A stretch of 48,196 nucleotides of DNA from Peptococcaceae bacterium (GTDB lineage: Bacteria > Bacillota > UBA994). Below the pieces are notes generated by a model that did not search any database, was not told where the DNA came from, and saw only the letters and a list, made by a program, of their open reading frames with translations. The number at the start of each line of letters is the position of its first letter. Position 1 is the first letter of the stretch. Shown one piece after another: positions 1,626 through 20,160 of this stretch. The position numbers were made by a program, and so were the translations under genes. Where the stretch lies: positions 1-48,196 of the forward strand of contig JAGXSS010000003.1 in assembly GCA_018334055.1 (NCBI GenBank), read 5' to 3'.

Positions 1626-1916
1626 TTACGACAGTTTCCCCAGGTACTTCTTGGCGTGGGTTATAGCTTCGTCTGTGCTCACACCCTGCTCGACGGCTTG
1701 GCGAATGGCACTCTCTAAGAGACAGGCGACCATGTTCAAGCCGACCTGCTCCACGGCGGCTTTTAAGGCAGCGACTTGGGTGACGATGTCCTCGCAGCTT
1801 CTCTTTTCATCGAGCATGCGCTGTATGCCTCGCGCCTGCCCTTCGATGCGGCGCAGGCGACTCTGTAAGTCAGGCGTCGCCTTTTCTAAGGTCTCGGGGT
1901 AAACGGTGTCCTTCAT
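1626..1916 (-). CDS. CsoR/RcnR-family (DUF156) transcriptional repressor
   Basis: All-helical DNA-binding sensor of the CsoR family, whose members sense Cu(I), Ni, formaldehyde or persulfide. The N-terminal part carries the family signature RLRRIEGQARGIQRML and then RSCEDIVTQVAALKAA. Numbering from the ATG at 1916 (GGAGG eight bases upstream), the first ligand Cys is C41, but the positions that are His and Cys in copper-sensing CsoR (25 and 29 residues later) are Leu66 and Ala70; the only other Cys is C65. It also differs from CstR, which keeps the second Cys. A Cu(I) role is therefore doubtful and a dithiol/persulfide or other ligand is possible. It is the last gene of a run with the NapH/FNR fusion (15-30 base gap) and thioredoxin; a CsoR-type palindrome lies in that run's promoter. 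Confidence 0.85.
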   Translation of the reverse strand: MKDTVYPETLEKATPDLQSRLRRIEGQARGIQRMLDEKRSCEDIVTQVAALKAAVEQVGLNMVACLLESAIRQAVEQGVSTDEAITHAKKYLGKLS

Positions 1917-1946
1917 TCTCTTTACCTCCACAATGGCTGATAATTA

Positions 1947-3401
1947 CTAGGCGCTTTCGGCGAATATAGCCTTACCCGACACTCCCTGCGAAGTGAGTTT
2001 CTTGGTGACTGCTTCAACCATGGGCTTTGAGCCACATACATAGACCGAATACCCACGCCAATCTAAGCCCGAAAGCGCATCGGTGACAAATCCTTTTTGG
2101 CCTATATACTGACCGCTTGGGTTCGCTACCACCTTGACATATTCAAATTGCGAAAATTCCTGTGCTAGAGCGCTGAAAACATCATCATAGAGTATTTCTC
2201 CCGGCGTATTGACACCATAGATGAGTTTAAATGCCTTCTTTTTTTGTACGAGAGCTTCAGCGATGGGCACAAAGGGAGTGATGCCAATTCCTCCGGCAAC
2301 GAGCAGAATTTTATCTGCCTTTTCGTCAATGAGCAGGGCGTTGCCAAGCGGTCCTTCGAGGTTGACATCTTGCCCTACCTTGAAATTATCAAATATAATC
2401 TCTGTGCCGTAACCTCCCGGGACGCGTTTCACTGTAAGGCGAACCTCTCGGTCGCTCCCCCTGCCGGTAATTGAGTAAGCGCGAAATATCTCCGGACTAT
2501 TTTCGATTTTGATCAAAAAATACTGCCCGGGAAGGTAGCTTACTTTTGGTGGCATTATAAATTCCAGCGTAAACTCACGCACATCGTCGGCAAGGGCGAC
2601 TATCCCCTTGATACGGGCCTTGATGGCTTGTCTAGTGTCGTAACCGCGCCGGTCGGTGGCCGCGCCGCGGGCGAAAGCCTGAGACTCCGTTTCGAGAGTG
2701 AGAATTTTCGCCGGACAGTTCTCGATACAAGTGAGGCACCTGATGCAAGCAAGATCATCAAATTGATTTTTGTCCGAAAAATTCGTATAGGGCACCCTCT
2801 GCATGGGGCAGGTACGAGCGCATTTGGCGCATTTATGGCATTTTTCAATGGCAGAGACGGTAATCTTTTGGTCGTGTTTTTTCGTCAGCCCTAATTTCTT
2901 GCCCAGACTATACATAAACATCTGCATTATGCCCATCGGACAGAATTGACACCAAGTGCGCGGCGTAACAATAAGACCGAGGATGCCGCCGGCCACTGTA
3001 ACCATCAGGTAACTATTCACAAAAACAAAGCCCAGCCTATCCCAAAAGGGCAGCGTCCCCCATAGGGCCGAGACGAGGATGATCCTGCTAAGCATGTTGT
3101 ACATAAACCAAGTTAAGACAATGCCCTGCGTAACCTTAGACTTGAGAAAACTAGGTATTTTGGCATTGCGACTAAAGGGCAAAAGCAACCGGTCAAAGAG
3201 ACTGCCATGGGCACAAAAAGTGCCGCACCAGTAGCGCCCCTTAAAAAGTGAAATTGCGGTCAGAGAGAAAATTACTCCGAGGACGAGCAGGCCGAGCCTA
3301 GGGAACCATAATCCGCCGAAAGCTACAGTGAGGGTAAAAATCCAAGCATAACGACGAATTGCTGTAAACGCGCGGTTGGTTTTCATGTAAAATCTTTTCA
3401 T
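1947..3401 (-). CDS. Membrane 4Fe-4S protein fused to FNR-type flavin reductase
   Basis: Two-part electron transfer protein of 484 aa. Residues about 15-165 hold membrane segments and two CxxC-type motifs, CGTFCAHG (59-66) and CQFCPMG (151-157), as in NapH/polyferredoxin (quinol-side) proteins. Two bacterial-ferredoxin clusters follow: C188/C191/C194/C198 and C219/C222/C225/C229. From about residue 260 comes a ferredoxin-NAD(P) reductase module: flavin-binding RAYSITG (307-313), then LLVAGGIGITPF and a C-terminal YVCGSKPMV nucleotide motif. It could pass electrons between NAD(P)H, iron-sulfur carriers and a membrane or soluble acceptor. The ATG at 3401 has AGGAGG at 3407-3412. It lies between thioredoxin and csoR in one transcription unit. 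Exact donor and acceptor are unknown. Confidence 0.85.
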   Translation of the reverse strand: MKRFYMKTNRAFTAIRRYAWIFTLTVAFGGLWFPRLGLLVLGVIFSLTAISLFKGRYWCGTFCAHGSLFDRLLLPFSRNAKIPSFLKSKVTQGIVLTWFMYNMLSRIILVSALWGTLPFWDRLGFVFVNSYLMVTVAGGILGLIVTPRTWCQFCPMGIMQMFMYSLGKKLGLTKKHDQKITVSAIEKCHKCAKCARTCPMQRVPYTNFSDKNQFDDLACIRCLTCIENCPAKILTLETESQAFARGAATDRRGYDTRQAIKARIKGIVALADDVREFTLEFIMPPKVSYLPGQYFLIKIENSPEIFRAYSITGRGSDREVRLTVKRVPGGYGTEIIFDNFKVGQDVNLEGPLGNALLIDEKADKILLVAGGIGITPFVPIAEALVQKKKAFKLIYGVNTPGEILYDDVFSALAQEFSQFEYVKVVANPSGQYIGQKGFVTDALSGLDWRGYSVYVCGSKPMVEAVTKKLTSQGVSGKAIFAESA

Positions 3402-3436
3402 GCTAGCCTCCTAAATTATCCATTTGACCGCGCAAA

Positions 3437-3760
3437 TTACTTTCTGGCGAGAACTTGGTCAACGAGGTCCTTGAGTGCTTTTTCGGACAACACCCCCGTT
3501 ACTCGCTCTACCTCCTTGCCACCACGGAAAAACAGCATGGTGGGTATGCTCATAATGTTGTATTGGCCTGCAGTTTGCTGATTTTCGTCGACATTGAGCT
3601 TGGCAAACTTGATCTTATGTCCGTACTCCCTGTCTACCCGGTCGACAATGGGGCCGAGCATGCGGCAAGGCATGCACCAAGGCGCCCAAAAATCTACCAG
3701 AACAACCTCTGACGCATCCAAAATCTCTCTCTTGAAATTGCTGTCTGTTGCTTTTAGCAA
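3437..3760 (-). CDS. trxA: Thioredoxin with CMPC active site
   Basis: Small cytoplasmic disulfide reductase, 107 aa, the standard thioredoxin length. The active site is DFWAPWCMPCRMLGP with C29 and C32; the usual second residue Gly is replaced by Met (CMPC instead of CGPC), which may shift redox potential or partner choice. The cis-Pro loop SIPTML and the C-terminal GGKEVERVTGV are present. The start is TTG at 3760 with GGAGGAG about seven bases upstream. It is the first gene of the unit trx, NapH/FNR fusion, csoR and is divergent from a thioredoxin-reductase-like flavoprotein, which is likely its partner. Confidence 0.92.
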   Translation of the reverse strand: MLKATDSNFKREILDASEVVLVDFWAPWCMPCRMLGPIVDRVDREYGHKIKFAKLNVDENQQTAGQYNIMSIPTMLFFRGGKEVERVTGVLSEKALKDLVDQVLARK

Positions 3761-3792
3761 GTAAAACTCCTCCTCCGCTTCGGTTGACTACC

Positions 3793-3808
3793 ATACCCCG
3801 TAGGGTAT
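3793..3808. promoter_or_regulatory. CsoR-type operator palindrome
   Basis: ATACCCCGTAGGGTAT is a palindrome (6-bp arms, centre CGTA); on the minus strand it reads ATACCCTACGGGGTAT, very close to the known Bacillus CsoR box core TACCCTACGGGGGTA. It lies immediately downstream of the predicted start point of the thioredoxin-csoR transcript, between two divergent genes, consistent with autoregulated repression. Binding by the local CsoR homologue is inference. Confidence 0.75.
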
Positions 3809-3815
3809 AAAATAT

Positions 3816-3844
3816 ATTCTAGATTGACAAGTGCGCTTTGTCAA
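3816..3844 (-). promoter_or_regulatory. Sigma-A promoter of the trx/NapH-FNR/csoR unit
   Basis: On the minus strand TTGACA (3844-3839), a 17-base spacer, then TAGAAT (3821-3816). The start point would fall near 3809, right at the CsoR-type palindrome. The -35 region is part of an inverted repeat TTGACAA-N7-TTGTCAA (3824-3844), so a TTGACA also faces the divergent gene, although that side has only a weak -10. Confidence 0.75.
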
Positions 3845-3870
3845 GCGCTAATACCTAGGGAGGTATCGTT

Positions 3871-4722
3871 ATGGAATTAGATGTCGCCATCATTGGGTGC
3901 GGGCCGGCAGGCCTATCGGCCGCCATCAATGCTAAAATCCGCAAAAAGACGGTCAAAGTCTTTGGCACAGAGGTGTGTAGTGCCAAACTGGAGAGCGCAC
4001 CCTGGGTAGAAAACTACCTTGGGATGCAAACCACGGGCACGGAGCTCGGGGCGATGTACTTGCGCCATTTCACGGACATGGGTCTTAAAATTCACCGCAC
4101 GCGTGTAGACACCATCGTCTCAACCGGGACCGGCTTCATGGTGGCCGCCAAAGGGGAAATTTACGAGGCGCGTACCGTTATTTTGGCTACCGGTATTTCT
4201 CAGACCACATACTTGCCAGGTGAACGTGACTTCGTGGGACGTGGCATTAGCTACTGCGGGACCTGCGACGGCCCACTCTACAAAGGGAAGGCGGTAGCGG
4301 TCATCGGTTACACCGCGGAAGCCGTTGAAGAAGCAAAGTTCTTAGCCACTATCGCCTCCTTGGTCTACTATATTCCGCAGGGGACGGACATGACCGGCCC
4401 ACACCCAAATATCGAAGTAGTACACGGCCGACCAATCGGCATTTTGGGCGAAGGCTCATTAACCCGTCTCGCCTTGCGGGACAAGGAACTCCGCGTGGAC
4501 GGGGTCTTCATTTTCCGCGAGACCACCCCGGTGGAACAGATCCTCGCCGACTTGGAGTTGTCTCAAGGAGCGGTACACGTGGACAGGCAGATGGCGACCA
4601 ATATCCCGGGTGTTTTTGCCGCAGGTGATTGCACAGGTCGGCCATTCCAACTTGCCAAGGCTGTGGGCGAAGGGGCCGTGGCAGGGTTAAGTGCCGCAGC
4701 CTATCTCGATAAAAGGTCCTAA
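3871..4722 (+). CDS. Thioredoxin-reductase-like flavoprotein without clear NADPH motifs
   Basis: FAD-dependent pyridine-nucleotide-disulfide family protein of 283 aa. FAD binding is shown by GCGPAGLSAA (9-18) and the C-terminal FAAGDCTGRPFQLAKAVGEG. The redox pair is CGTC (C129, C132), followed by DGPLYKGK as in thioredoxin reductases. In NADPH-using TrxR the next motif is GGGxSA-EEA and later HRRxxxR; here the first is degraded to IGYTAEAVEEA (145-155) and the second is replaced by VYYIPQG. The ferredoxin-dependent flavin thioredoxin reductases known from clostridia also lack these motifs, so a ferredoxin-type donor is a reasonable inference. ATG 3871 follows AGGGAGG (3857-3863). It is divergent from trxA and shares the CsoR-operator region. 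Confidence 0.85.
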   Translation: MELDVAIIGCGPAGLSAAINAKIRKKTVKVFGTEVCSAKLESAPWVENYLGMQTTGTELGAMYLRHFTDMGLKIHRTRVDTIVSTGTGFMVAAKGEIYEARTVILATGISQTTYLPGERDFVGRGISYCGTCDGPLYKGKAVAVIGYTAEAVEEAKFLATIASLVYYIPQGTDMTGPHPNIEVVHGRPIGILGEGSLTRLALRDKELRVDGVFIFRETTPVEQILADLELSQGAVHVDRQMATNIPGVFAAGDCTGRPFQLAKAVGEGAVAGLSAAAYLDKRS

Positions 4723-19998: not shown

Positions 19999-20018
19999 AA
20001 GAAAGAAACTAAATAATA

Positions 20019-20134
20019 ACCTTCGGGGTCGGGTGCAATTCCCTACCGGTGGTAATGCGCAAGCTAGCCCACGAGCCAATTGGCAGACCTAGTGTGATTC
20101 TAGGGCCGACGGTACAGTCCGGAATAAAGAAGGT
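20019..20134 (+). ncRNA. FMN riboswitch (RFN element) aptamer
   Basis: Closing stem ACCTTC/GAAGGT (20019-20024, 20129-20134). Conserved pieces in order: CTTCGGGGTCGGGTGCAATT, CCCTACCGGTGGTAATGCGC, AGCCCACGAGCC, TTGGCAGACCTAGTGTGATT, CTAGGGCCGACGGTACAGTC, CGGAATAAAGAAGGT. This is the standard six-helix FMN aptamer, which shuts off riboflavin uptake or synthesis when FMN is plentiful. The downstream gene is ribU. Confidence 0.97.
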
Positions 20135-20160
20135 ATGGCATTATTTTTTGTGCTATGTTT

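Follow-up and report, generated by a model that had tools for sequence, protein, structure and literature searches.

Four genes at positions 1,626 to 4,722 of a 48,196-nucleotide stretch of a Peptococcaceae bacterium genome (GenBank assembly GCA_018334055.1, contig JAGXSS010000003.1; the whole stretch is called the window here) encode a CsoR-family repressor-like protein, a NapH/4Fe-4S/FNR fusion protein, a thioredoxin and a flavoprotein resembling the ferredoxin-dependent flavin thioredoxin reductases (FFTRs). We propose that these genes form part of a thiol-redox stress regulon, answering to oxidants or persulfides, under a CsoR-family repressor of a non-copper type, and we put the probability of this reading at roughly 0.6. 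The source genome (G000) comprises 2.38 Mb in 109 contigs and is 95.8% complete; the window is its contig C3 from base 1.

Each of the four genes is intact where the first-pass annotation of this DNA had placed them, with trx, fusion and csoR in one run and the flavoprotein gene divergent from it (Table 1). The intergenic gaps of 35 bp between trx and the fusion and 15 bp between the fusion and csoR are such that the three genes fit one transcript. The 110-bp gap between trx and the FFTR gene holds a palindrome that is the only strict TACCC-N4-GGGTA site in the whole source genome (control, two); the CsoR operator claimed earlier is real as sequence, and CsoR-family control is suggested. The relaxed form TACCY-N4-RGGTA occurs six times in the genome, as often as in the reversed control, and two of the six lie inside this gap. 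A promoter scan of positions 3700-3900 returned exactly the two sites listed in Table 1, compared with a mean of 0.4 after shuffling. The palindrome begins 8 bp past the -10 box of the trx promoter-like site and falls in the spacer of the FFTR promoter-like site. Because the divergent promoter-like sites share this palindrome, a single repressor could shut off trx-fusion-csoR and FFTR together, and we regard the palindrome as a candidate repressor site; the geometry of the trx-fusion-csoR run suggests self-regulation. A second, weaker palindrome in the same gap was set aside as an operator because it overlaps the ribosome-binding site of the FFTR gene and is missing from the corresponding place in a congeneric genome.

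Table 1. Features of the thioredoxin locus, in window coordinates.
Feature	Position	Strand	Basis or remark
CsoR-family repressor-like gene, 101 amino acids, Cys46/Cys70 (C-X23-C)	1626..1931	-	Pfam PF02583, E 2.7e-21; alignments, residue classes
Fusion gene, 484 amino acids: NapH-type membrane domain, two 4Fe-4S motifs, FAD/NAD-binding FNR module	1947..3401	-	Fer4_5, Fer4_10, FAD_binding_6, NAD_binding_1
Thioredoxin A gene, WCMPC active site	3437..3760	-	PF00085, E 2.9e-30; TIGR01068, 128.1 bits (cutoff 96.8)
Promoter-like TTGACT-18-TAAAAT for FFTR	3784..3813	+	10/12 matches
CsoR-type operator-like palindrome TACCC-CGTA-GGGTA (TACCCCGTAGGGTA)	3794..3807		sole strict site in genome
Promoter-like TTGACA-17-TAGAAT for trx-fusion-csoR	3816..3844	-	11/12 matches
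Second, weaker palindrome TACCTAGGGAGGTA, overlapping FFTR ribosome-binding site	3852..3865		in G001, not at same place in G002
FFTR-like gene, 283 amino acids, CGTC, without NADPH motifs	3871..4722	+	PDB matches, alignment with the genome's NADPH-type reductase

The exact 14-mer of the palindrome is found at 10 places in 329 genomes (control, six). Six of these are beside trx, trx-trxB or csoR (G000, G001, G143, here with a NapH-like gene, G224, G026 and G180), and G260 may be a seventh place of this type: its 14-mer lies at a contig end, next to an acyl-CoA-dehydrogenase-like gene that borders csoR-trx at another locus (L179).

Consideration of the genes' arrangement in relatives gives insight into what is conserved. 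Eight genomes of the family were compared, G000 to G007, where G000 is the source genome and G001 and G002 are of the same genus. The four genes stand together only in G000 and G001, a near-identical pair in which the G001 genes share 94-100% identity with those of the window; a scan of genome contigs gave one fusion locus, on QLUC01000021.1, at 94% identity. Thirteen further loci with a full-length fusion were read, and the four-gene neighbourhood occurs at none of them. The first-pass annotation had let its proposal depend on conservation of this neighbourhood, which fails in six of the eight family genomes and at those 13 loci. In G002 csoR (78% identity) is divergent from FFTR (80%), and the gap between the two contains TACCCCTGTGGGTA and neither trx nor fusion (L088), while the fusion lies about 110 kb away on the same contig with a trx one gene off; on these grounds the four-gene island was rejected as an ancestral unit. 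A trx-fusion pair precedes lplA-gcv-like genes in G007, the fusion follows moaD-AOR-like genes in G004, and it stands alone in G005 (names by reading). G003 and G006 have no fusion, no FFTR and no strict operator site. The G007 pair was considered as a substitute for the glycine-cleavage L-protein and set aside, because a dihydrolipoyl-dehydrogenase-like gene (also named by reading) ends the gcv cluster.

The eight family genomes contain 16 strict sites, of which seven precede csoR, trx, FFTR or the fusion by 19-87 bp: two in G002 and one each in G000, G001, G004, G005 and G007. Eight of the other nine were read, and were found inside genes (four), in terminator-like hairpins (two) or between genes (two); one site (G004:C76) was left out of this reading. 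In five of the six fusion-bearing family genomes, a perfect operator precedes the fusion or its trx operon by 25-44 bp, at 36 bp from the fusion in G005, 44 bp from it in G004, 25 bp before trx-fusion in G007, and through trx in G000 and G001. The grouping of Trx, FFTR and fusion as one set, proposed earlier from their adjacency, therefore survives as one regulon, judged by operators in relatives that have these genes apart from each other. The family conserves regulation more than gene order, and these sites place the fusion within the regulon in this family.

The same positions bear on whether the fusion has nothing to do with its neighbours csoR and trx and is only a passenger, perhaps brought in with the adjacent REP-type transposase gene, so that only Trx and FFTR would be in the regulon. 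The G002 arrangement would fit such a history, as would the lack of an operator of the fusion's own in that genome and the Y1-transposase gene that adjoins csoR in the window and in G001. We consider it very improbable given the operators before the stand-alone fusions of G005 and G004 and before the G007 pair. In G148 a NapH-only relative has a further operator 26 bp before it, the one instance (within 300 bp, at most one mismatch) among 11 other NapH relatives that are NapH-only, split or cut by a contig end.

The CsoR-like protein carries the Pfam Trns_repr_metal domain (PF02583; 76.2 bits, cutoff 22.8). Proteins of the CsoR superfamily bind GC-rich palindromic operators, and the palindrome at 3794-3807 is a candidate for such a site. 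We take the Cu(I) ligands to be Cys36, His61 and Cys65 in the numbering of the Mycobacterium tuberculosis protein. The window protein keeps the first of these as Cys46, has Leu for the copper His and Ala for the second copper Cys, and also lacks the Tyr that precedes the first Cys in copper-type proteins; no copA or copZ gene lies within 2 kb, and neither its full ligand set nor its neighbours are those of a copper-sensing CsoR. A second cysteine, Cys70, sits one residue before the copper His position, giving a C-X23-C pair that corresponds to C36-C60 of the M. tuberculosis protein.

A set of 398 genomes of the phylum served for profile searches with CsoR, the fusion and FFTR. At least 179 of them have a CsoR match at E <= 1e-18, and 76 profile hits, less nine duplicate loci, gave 67 loci and, with the window, 68; these are mostly the best profile matches, so low-scoring CsoRs are under-sampled. 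Neighbouring genes were named by Pfam, by BLAST to references taken from the loci (L130 for CopA/CopZ), or by reading translations. Division by the residue before the first Cys yielded 10 copper-type loci, with Tyr, and 58 without it. CopA/CopZ genes lie within 2 kb at six of the former and none of the latter, Trx at one and 28, and the operator at none and 31 (Fisher p = 2e-6, 0.036 and 0.0014, respectively, uncorrected for kinship). In the sample read, one or more genes for Trx, TrxR/NTR-like reductases, rhodanese, AhpC, rubrerythrin, TusA, HdrA-like proteins or YeeE stand beside 37 of the 58, so that CsoR genes of this kind keep thiol, sulfur or peroxide company, and no copper genes, though the Pfam model is named for a metal-sensitive repressor. 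The 273 kb around the 68 loci contain 36 TACCY-N4-RGGTA sites, compared with none in reversed controls. A same-strand Trx gene lies within 2 kb at 28 of the 68 loci (10 families) and within 200 bp at 20 (eight families). The window protein falls in a clade of seven (support 99/96, from few columns; families f1 and f3), all encoded beside trx or FFTR, and in the sister family f3 a rhodanese gene follows trx-csoR at three of four loci. In two other families the genes csoR, trx and FFTR are consecutive, as trx-csoR-FFTR (L195) and csoR-FFTR-trx (L216), with CsoR proteins of other cysteine classes. More distant C36-C60 CsoRs of genus g2 are encoded beside AhpC or rubrerythrin genes, with an AhpF-like gene at L095.

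These data make it improbable that the locus answers to copper or another thiophilic metal, with Cu(I), Ag(I) or Hg(II) sensed through Cys46 and Cys70 and damage repaired by the thioredoxin system and a metal-reducing NapH-type protein. Membership of the CsoR family, a palindrome that presumably resembles CsoR sites, and the example of CcoG, a NapH-type cupric reductase, would suit this explanation, as would FFTR genes found beside CopZ-like genes at L130, L135 and L152, with CopA-like genes too at L130 and L152 (by reading). It is opposed by the missing His61, Cys65 and Tyr, by the division of CopA/CopZ neighbours between the two classes (0/58 versus 6/10), and by a separate copper-type CsoR in the source genome (L047), which has no such operator within 2 kb.

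Two further groups of CsoR loci were observed in this sample. At L170, L171, L174 and L211, genes for NapH-like membrane iron-sulfur proteins are divergent from CsoR genes of the class without Tyr, with TACCC-N4-GGGTA between them, and in families f112, f16 and f35 control of NapH-type proteins by CsoR may be a recurrent theme. At L199 and L219, a CsoR with C60-H61 is encoded beside genes for TusA, an MvhD-like protein (by reading) and an HdrA-like flavoprotein; the gap contains operator-like sites, and the set may be a sulfane-sulfur regulon.

The flavoprotein is, by its sequence, an FFTR-type thioredoxin reductase. Its best PDB matches are 6gna (E = 1.2e-78), 6gnd (3.1e-77) and 6gnc (3.1e-74), with the next thioredoxin reductase at 2.8e-38; we take entries 6gna, 6gnb, 6gnc and 6gnd to be clostridial FFTRs, the listing itself saying thioredoxin reductase. 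In alignment, both NADPH motifs are missing from it and kept in the NADPH-dependent thioredoxin reductase (NTR) of the same genome (GYTAEA versus GGGDTAVE; no HRRxxxR), and its disulfide domain has a redox CxxC (YCGTCDG). The PDB matches and the NTR alignment agree with the earlier description of a reductase-like flavoprotein without NADPH motifs. In the available part of PMC10880999 (section 6), FFTRs are defined by the lack of the GxGxxA and HRRxxxR NAD(P)H motifs. Relatives at E <= 1e-60, the threshold for FFTR presence, occur in 118 of the 398 phylum genomes. The NTR is encoded on contig C68 and a separate TrxB-Trx pair beside grd-like genes (by reading) on contig C34; together with FFTR, this implies three kinds of TrxB in the genome, as the available text of PMC10880999 describes for Clostridioides difficile.

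The FFTR genes that adjoin CopZ-like genes, named above, come from three genomes of family f74, where FFTR may be part of copper defence. In the source genome, at L047 (contig C68, 7141-7350), a CopZ-like heavy-metal domain is encoded with TGA at the first Cys of its GMTCxxC motif (GMT-TGA-GSC); the gene is flanked by the copper-type csoR and NTR, and selA- and selB-like genes come after. It is a candidate selenoprotein metal chaperone; the stretch has no Rfam match at E <= 0.1.

Full-length relatives of the fusion (E <= 1e-130; any match, E <= 1e-50) occur in 15 of the 398 genomes, and most of the other 19 matching genomes have the NapH half only. The fusion cysteines C59, C63, C151 and C154 and eight ferredoxin cysteines are invariant in 23 aligned sequences, and the NapH/MauN hallmark is present, with two Fer4_5 CxxxC/CxxC membrane motifs and two 4Fe-4S motifs. 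The protein scores below the NCBIfam napH cutoffs (TIGR02163, 41.5 versus 213.05 bits; NF007013, 46 versus 234), and none of its NCBIfam matches reaches the curated cutoff among the best 25 of 50. Its AlphaFold2 model has a mean pLDDT of 87.4 and a pTM of 0.78. The FNR half is nearest in sequence and fold to BenC (1krh), CarAd (7c3a), GcoB and NqrF; all of the 50 fold matches listed are FNR-type reductases, with no solved relative of the membrane half among them, and longer alignments to flavohemoglobin and SpNOX have root-mean-square deviations of 13-16. One half of the fusion thus matches the NapH/MauN ferredoxin-type proteins and the other the BenC/NqrF-type modules, unlike the NapH-only relatives that also exist in the phylum. 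Copies of the fusion lie near ferredoxin enzymes, AOR-like in G004 and 2-oxoacid:ferredoxin-oxidoreductase-like in G060 and G242, and the NapH-only relative of G148 lies beside NfnAB-like genes (names by reading or BLAST); other fusion copies stand alone.

The first-pass annotation had electrons flow from the fusion to FFTR. We consider it unlikely that the fusion is a dedicated feeder, passing electrons from NAD(P)H or the membrane through its 4Fe-4S clusters, directly or by way of ferredoxin, to FFTR and so to thioredoxin. Two family genomes, G005 and G007, have an operator-controlled fusion and no FFTR at the threshold used; FFTR occurs in 6 of the 15 fusion genomes and 112 of the 383 others, which is no co-occurrence beyond chance (p = 0.39); and among the 30 best FFTR loci, a NapH match within about 1.5 kb is lacking at 28, a few of the flanks being cut short at contig ends. 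The flavin of a cyanobacterial (Gloeobacter) FFTR has a potential of -448 mV, and the authors of that study put the emphasis on iron-sulfur donors of low potential and not on NADPH (PMC12796991, available text); NAD(P)H could not drive reduction at such a potential unless energy were added. A feeder would suit the place of the fusion between trx and csoR, downstream of the shared operator, and the closeness of its FNR module to reductases that feed iron-sulfur centres (BenC, CarAd, NqrF). Within the family, four of the six fusion genomes have FFTR and both fusion-less genomes, G003 and G006, lack it, which also speaks for the proposed chain; that the fusion feeds FFTR is, on balance, a weak conclusion. 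PF03116 (NqrB/RnfD/RnfE, a model that does not tell Rnf from Nqr) matches in all eight family genomes, and another route to reduced ferredoxin may therefore exist; the fusion as a replacement for Rnf was set aside on account of these matches. Of the earlier interpretation as a whole, the FFTR type, the suggested CsoR control and the regulon stand, and the conserved neighbourhood and the chain from fusion to FFTR do not.

In the thiol-redox regulon that we favour, the reduced CsoR-like repressor would bind the operator and close trx-fusion-csoR and FFTR, and it would leave the DNA once Cys46 and Cys70, which stand in for the copper site, become oxidised or persulfidated. Ferredoxin-driven FFTR would reduce TrxA, and TrxA would repair protein disulfides or persulfides and re-reduce the repressor. 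With less confidence, we suggest that the fusion would be a co-induced, NAD(P)H-linked membrane iron-sulfur flavoprotein and not a dedicated FFTR donor, perhaps supporting the thiol system by exchange of electrons between pyridine nucleotides and carriers of low potential or in the membrane. An oxidant or persulfide is proposed as inducer because of the neighbours (Trx, FFTR, rhodanese, TusA, YeeE, AhpC and rubrerythrin) and of the precedent of TTHA1953 from Thermus thermophilus, a two-cysteine CsoR-family protein that represses a thioredoxin (soxW) gene and whose oxidised form binds DNA less, according to the available part of PMC10318464. A bolder proposal, which we hold only tentatively, is that a previously undescribed CsoR branch with the C36-C60 pair serves anaerobic Bacillota as a dedicated sensor of the redox state of thioredoxin; through its TACCC-N4-GGGTA operator it would run FFTR together with the NapH-4Fe4S-FNR membrane oxidoreductase, and the latter would act as a valve for electrons among NADH, ferredoxin and the membrane.

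Several observations weigh against the favoured reading. The strict site is no more frequent in the family genomes than in the control (16 versus 16); what is informative is solely where the sites stand. The G002 fusion has no operator of its own within two mismatches, and none of nine full-length fusions outside the family has one (within 300 bp, at most one mismatch). The operator is lacking at 27 of the 58 loci without the copper-type Tyr, and 21 of the 58 have none of the redox genes; near relatives (families f51 and f22) are included among the 68. The csoR homologues of g2 beside AhpC or rubrerythrin genes have no operator in the stretches scanned, which counts against a single shared operator code. 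Some Trx-linked CsoRs retain His61 and Cys65 and could bind metal. The spacing of Cys46 and Cys70 is unlike that of the dithiol CsoR-family proteins compared, and a Cys46-Cys70 disulfide is for this reason only a candidate. Finally, the available text on TTHA1953 also reports an addition that left DNA binding undiminished (PMC10318464).

Comparison with known systems indicates that CsoR-family redox control is itself known; what would be new is its use on a ferredoxin-driven thioredoxin system through an unusual cysteine pair. CstR, a repressor that senses persulfides and is derepressed by them, is likewise a CsoR-family protein without the copper ligands, and the rhodanese gene after trx-csoR in f3 adds to the likeness. 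Its cysteine pair is, we assume, C-X28-C, in place of the C-X23-C of the window protein. The targets of CstR are cstAB-sqr/tauE (PMC6299908, available part), whereas here they would be Trx and FFTR. TTHA1953 shares redox-sensitive cysteines, a thioredoxin gene among its targets and an inverted repeat with a 4-bp spacer whose length matters for binding; it differs in its Cys39/Cys68 pair (X28), its consensus TACTATACCTTGGTATGGTA, its control of a sox operon and a gene unlinked to its targets (PMC10318464, available text). RexT of Nostoc is also a member of a metal-sensor family turned H2O2 sensor and thioredoxin regulator, but is a cyanobacterial ArsR-SmtB protein and not a CsoR (PMC8960804, available part). 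The clostridial FFTR and the TrxA1/TrxB1 and TrxA2/TrxB4 systems of C. difficile belong to the same reductase family by sequence, with Trx and FFTR encoded together, and C. difficile, like the source genome, has several Trx systems in one anaerobe; its trx genes are controlled by SigB, SigA and the sigma factors of sporulation, and CsoR and NapH go unmentioned in the main text available (PMC10880999). In the same text, the results of Anjou et al. suggest a common, still uncharacterised regulator of the oxygen-induced trxA1B1 and trxA2. Clostridial copAZ-csoR operons are described in the available part of PMC3519856, on which our argument does not lean. We found no CsoR-Trx-FFTR regulon in the library searched and the texts cited, though the main survey of CsoR proteins that sense persulfides (Nucleic Acids Res. 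2021, gkab1040) possibly contains an earlier description. Naming a candidate regulator class, operator and cysteine pair for another lineage lets the question of how anaerobes with several thioredoxin systems choose when to use the ferredoxin-driven one be tested with small purified proteins and one DNA fragment.

Around the locus, the gene adjoining csoR (847-1605) is REP-associated tyrosine (Y1) transposase-like, and was not found between the MoaD-like gene and csoR in G002. Upstream of it lies an extra MoaD/ThiS-like gene (419-739); in G001 (L034, 2171-4170) such a gene faces an AOR-MoaD-ThiF/MoeB-like run. The sole Rfam match on the window is an FMN riboswitch at 20015-20138 (RF00050, 109.7 bits), unrelated to the thioredoxin locus.

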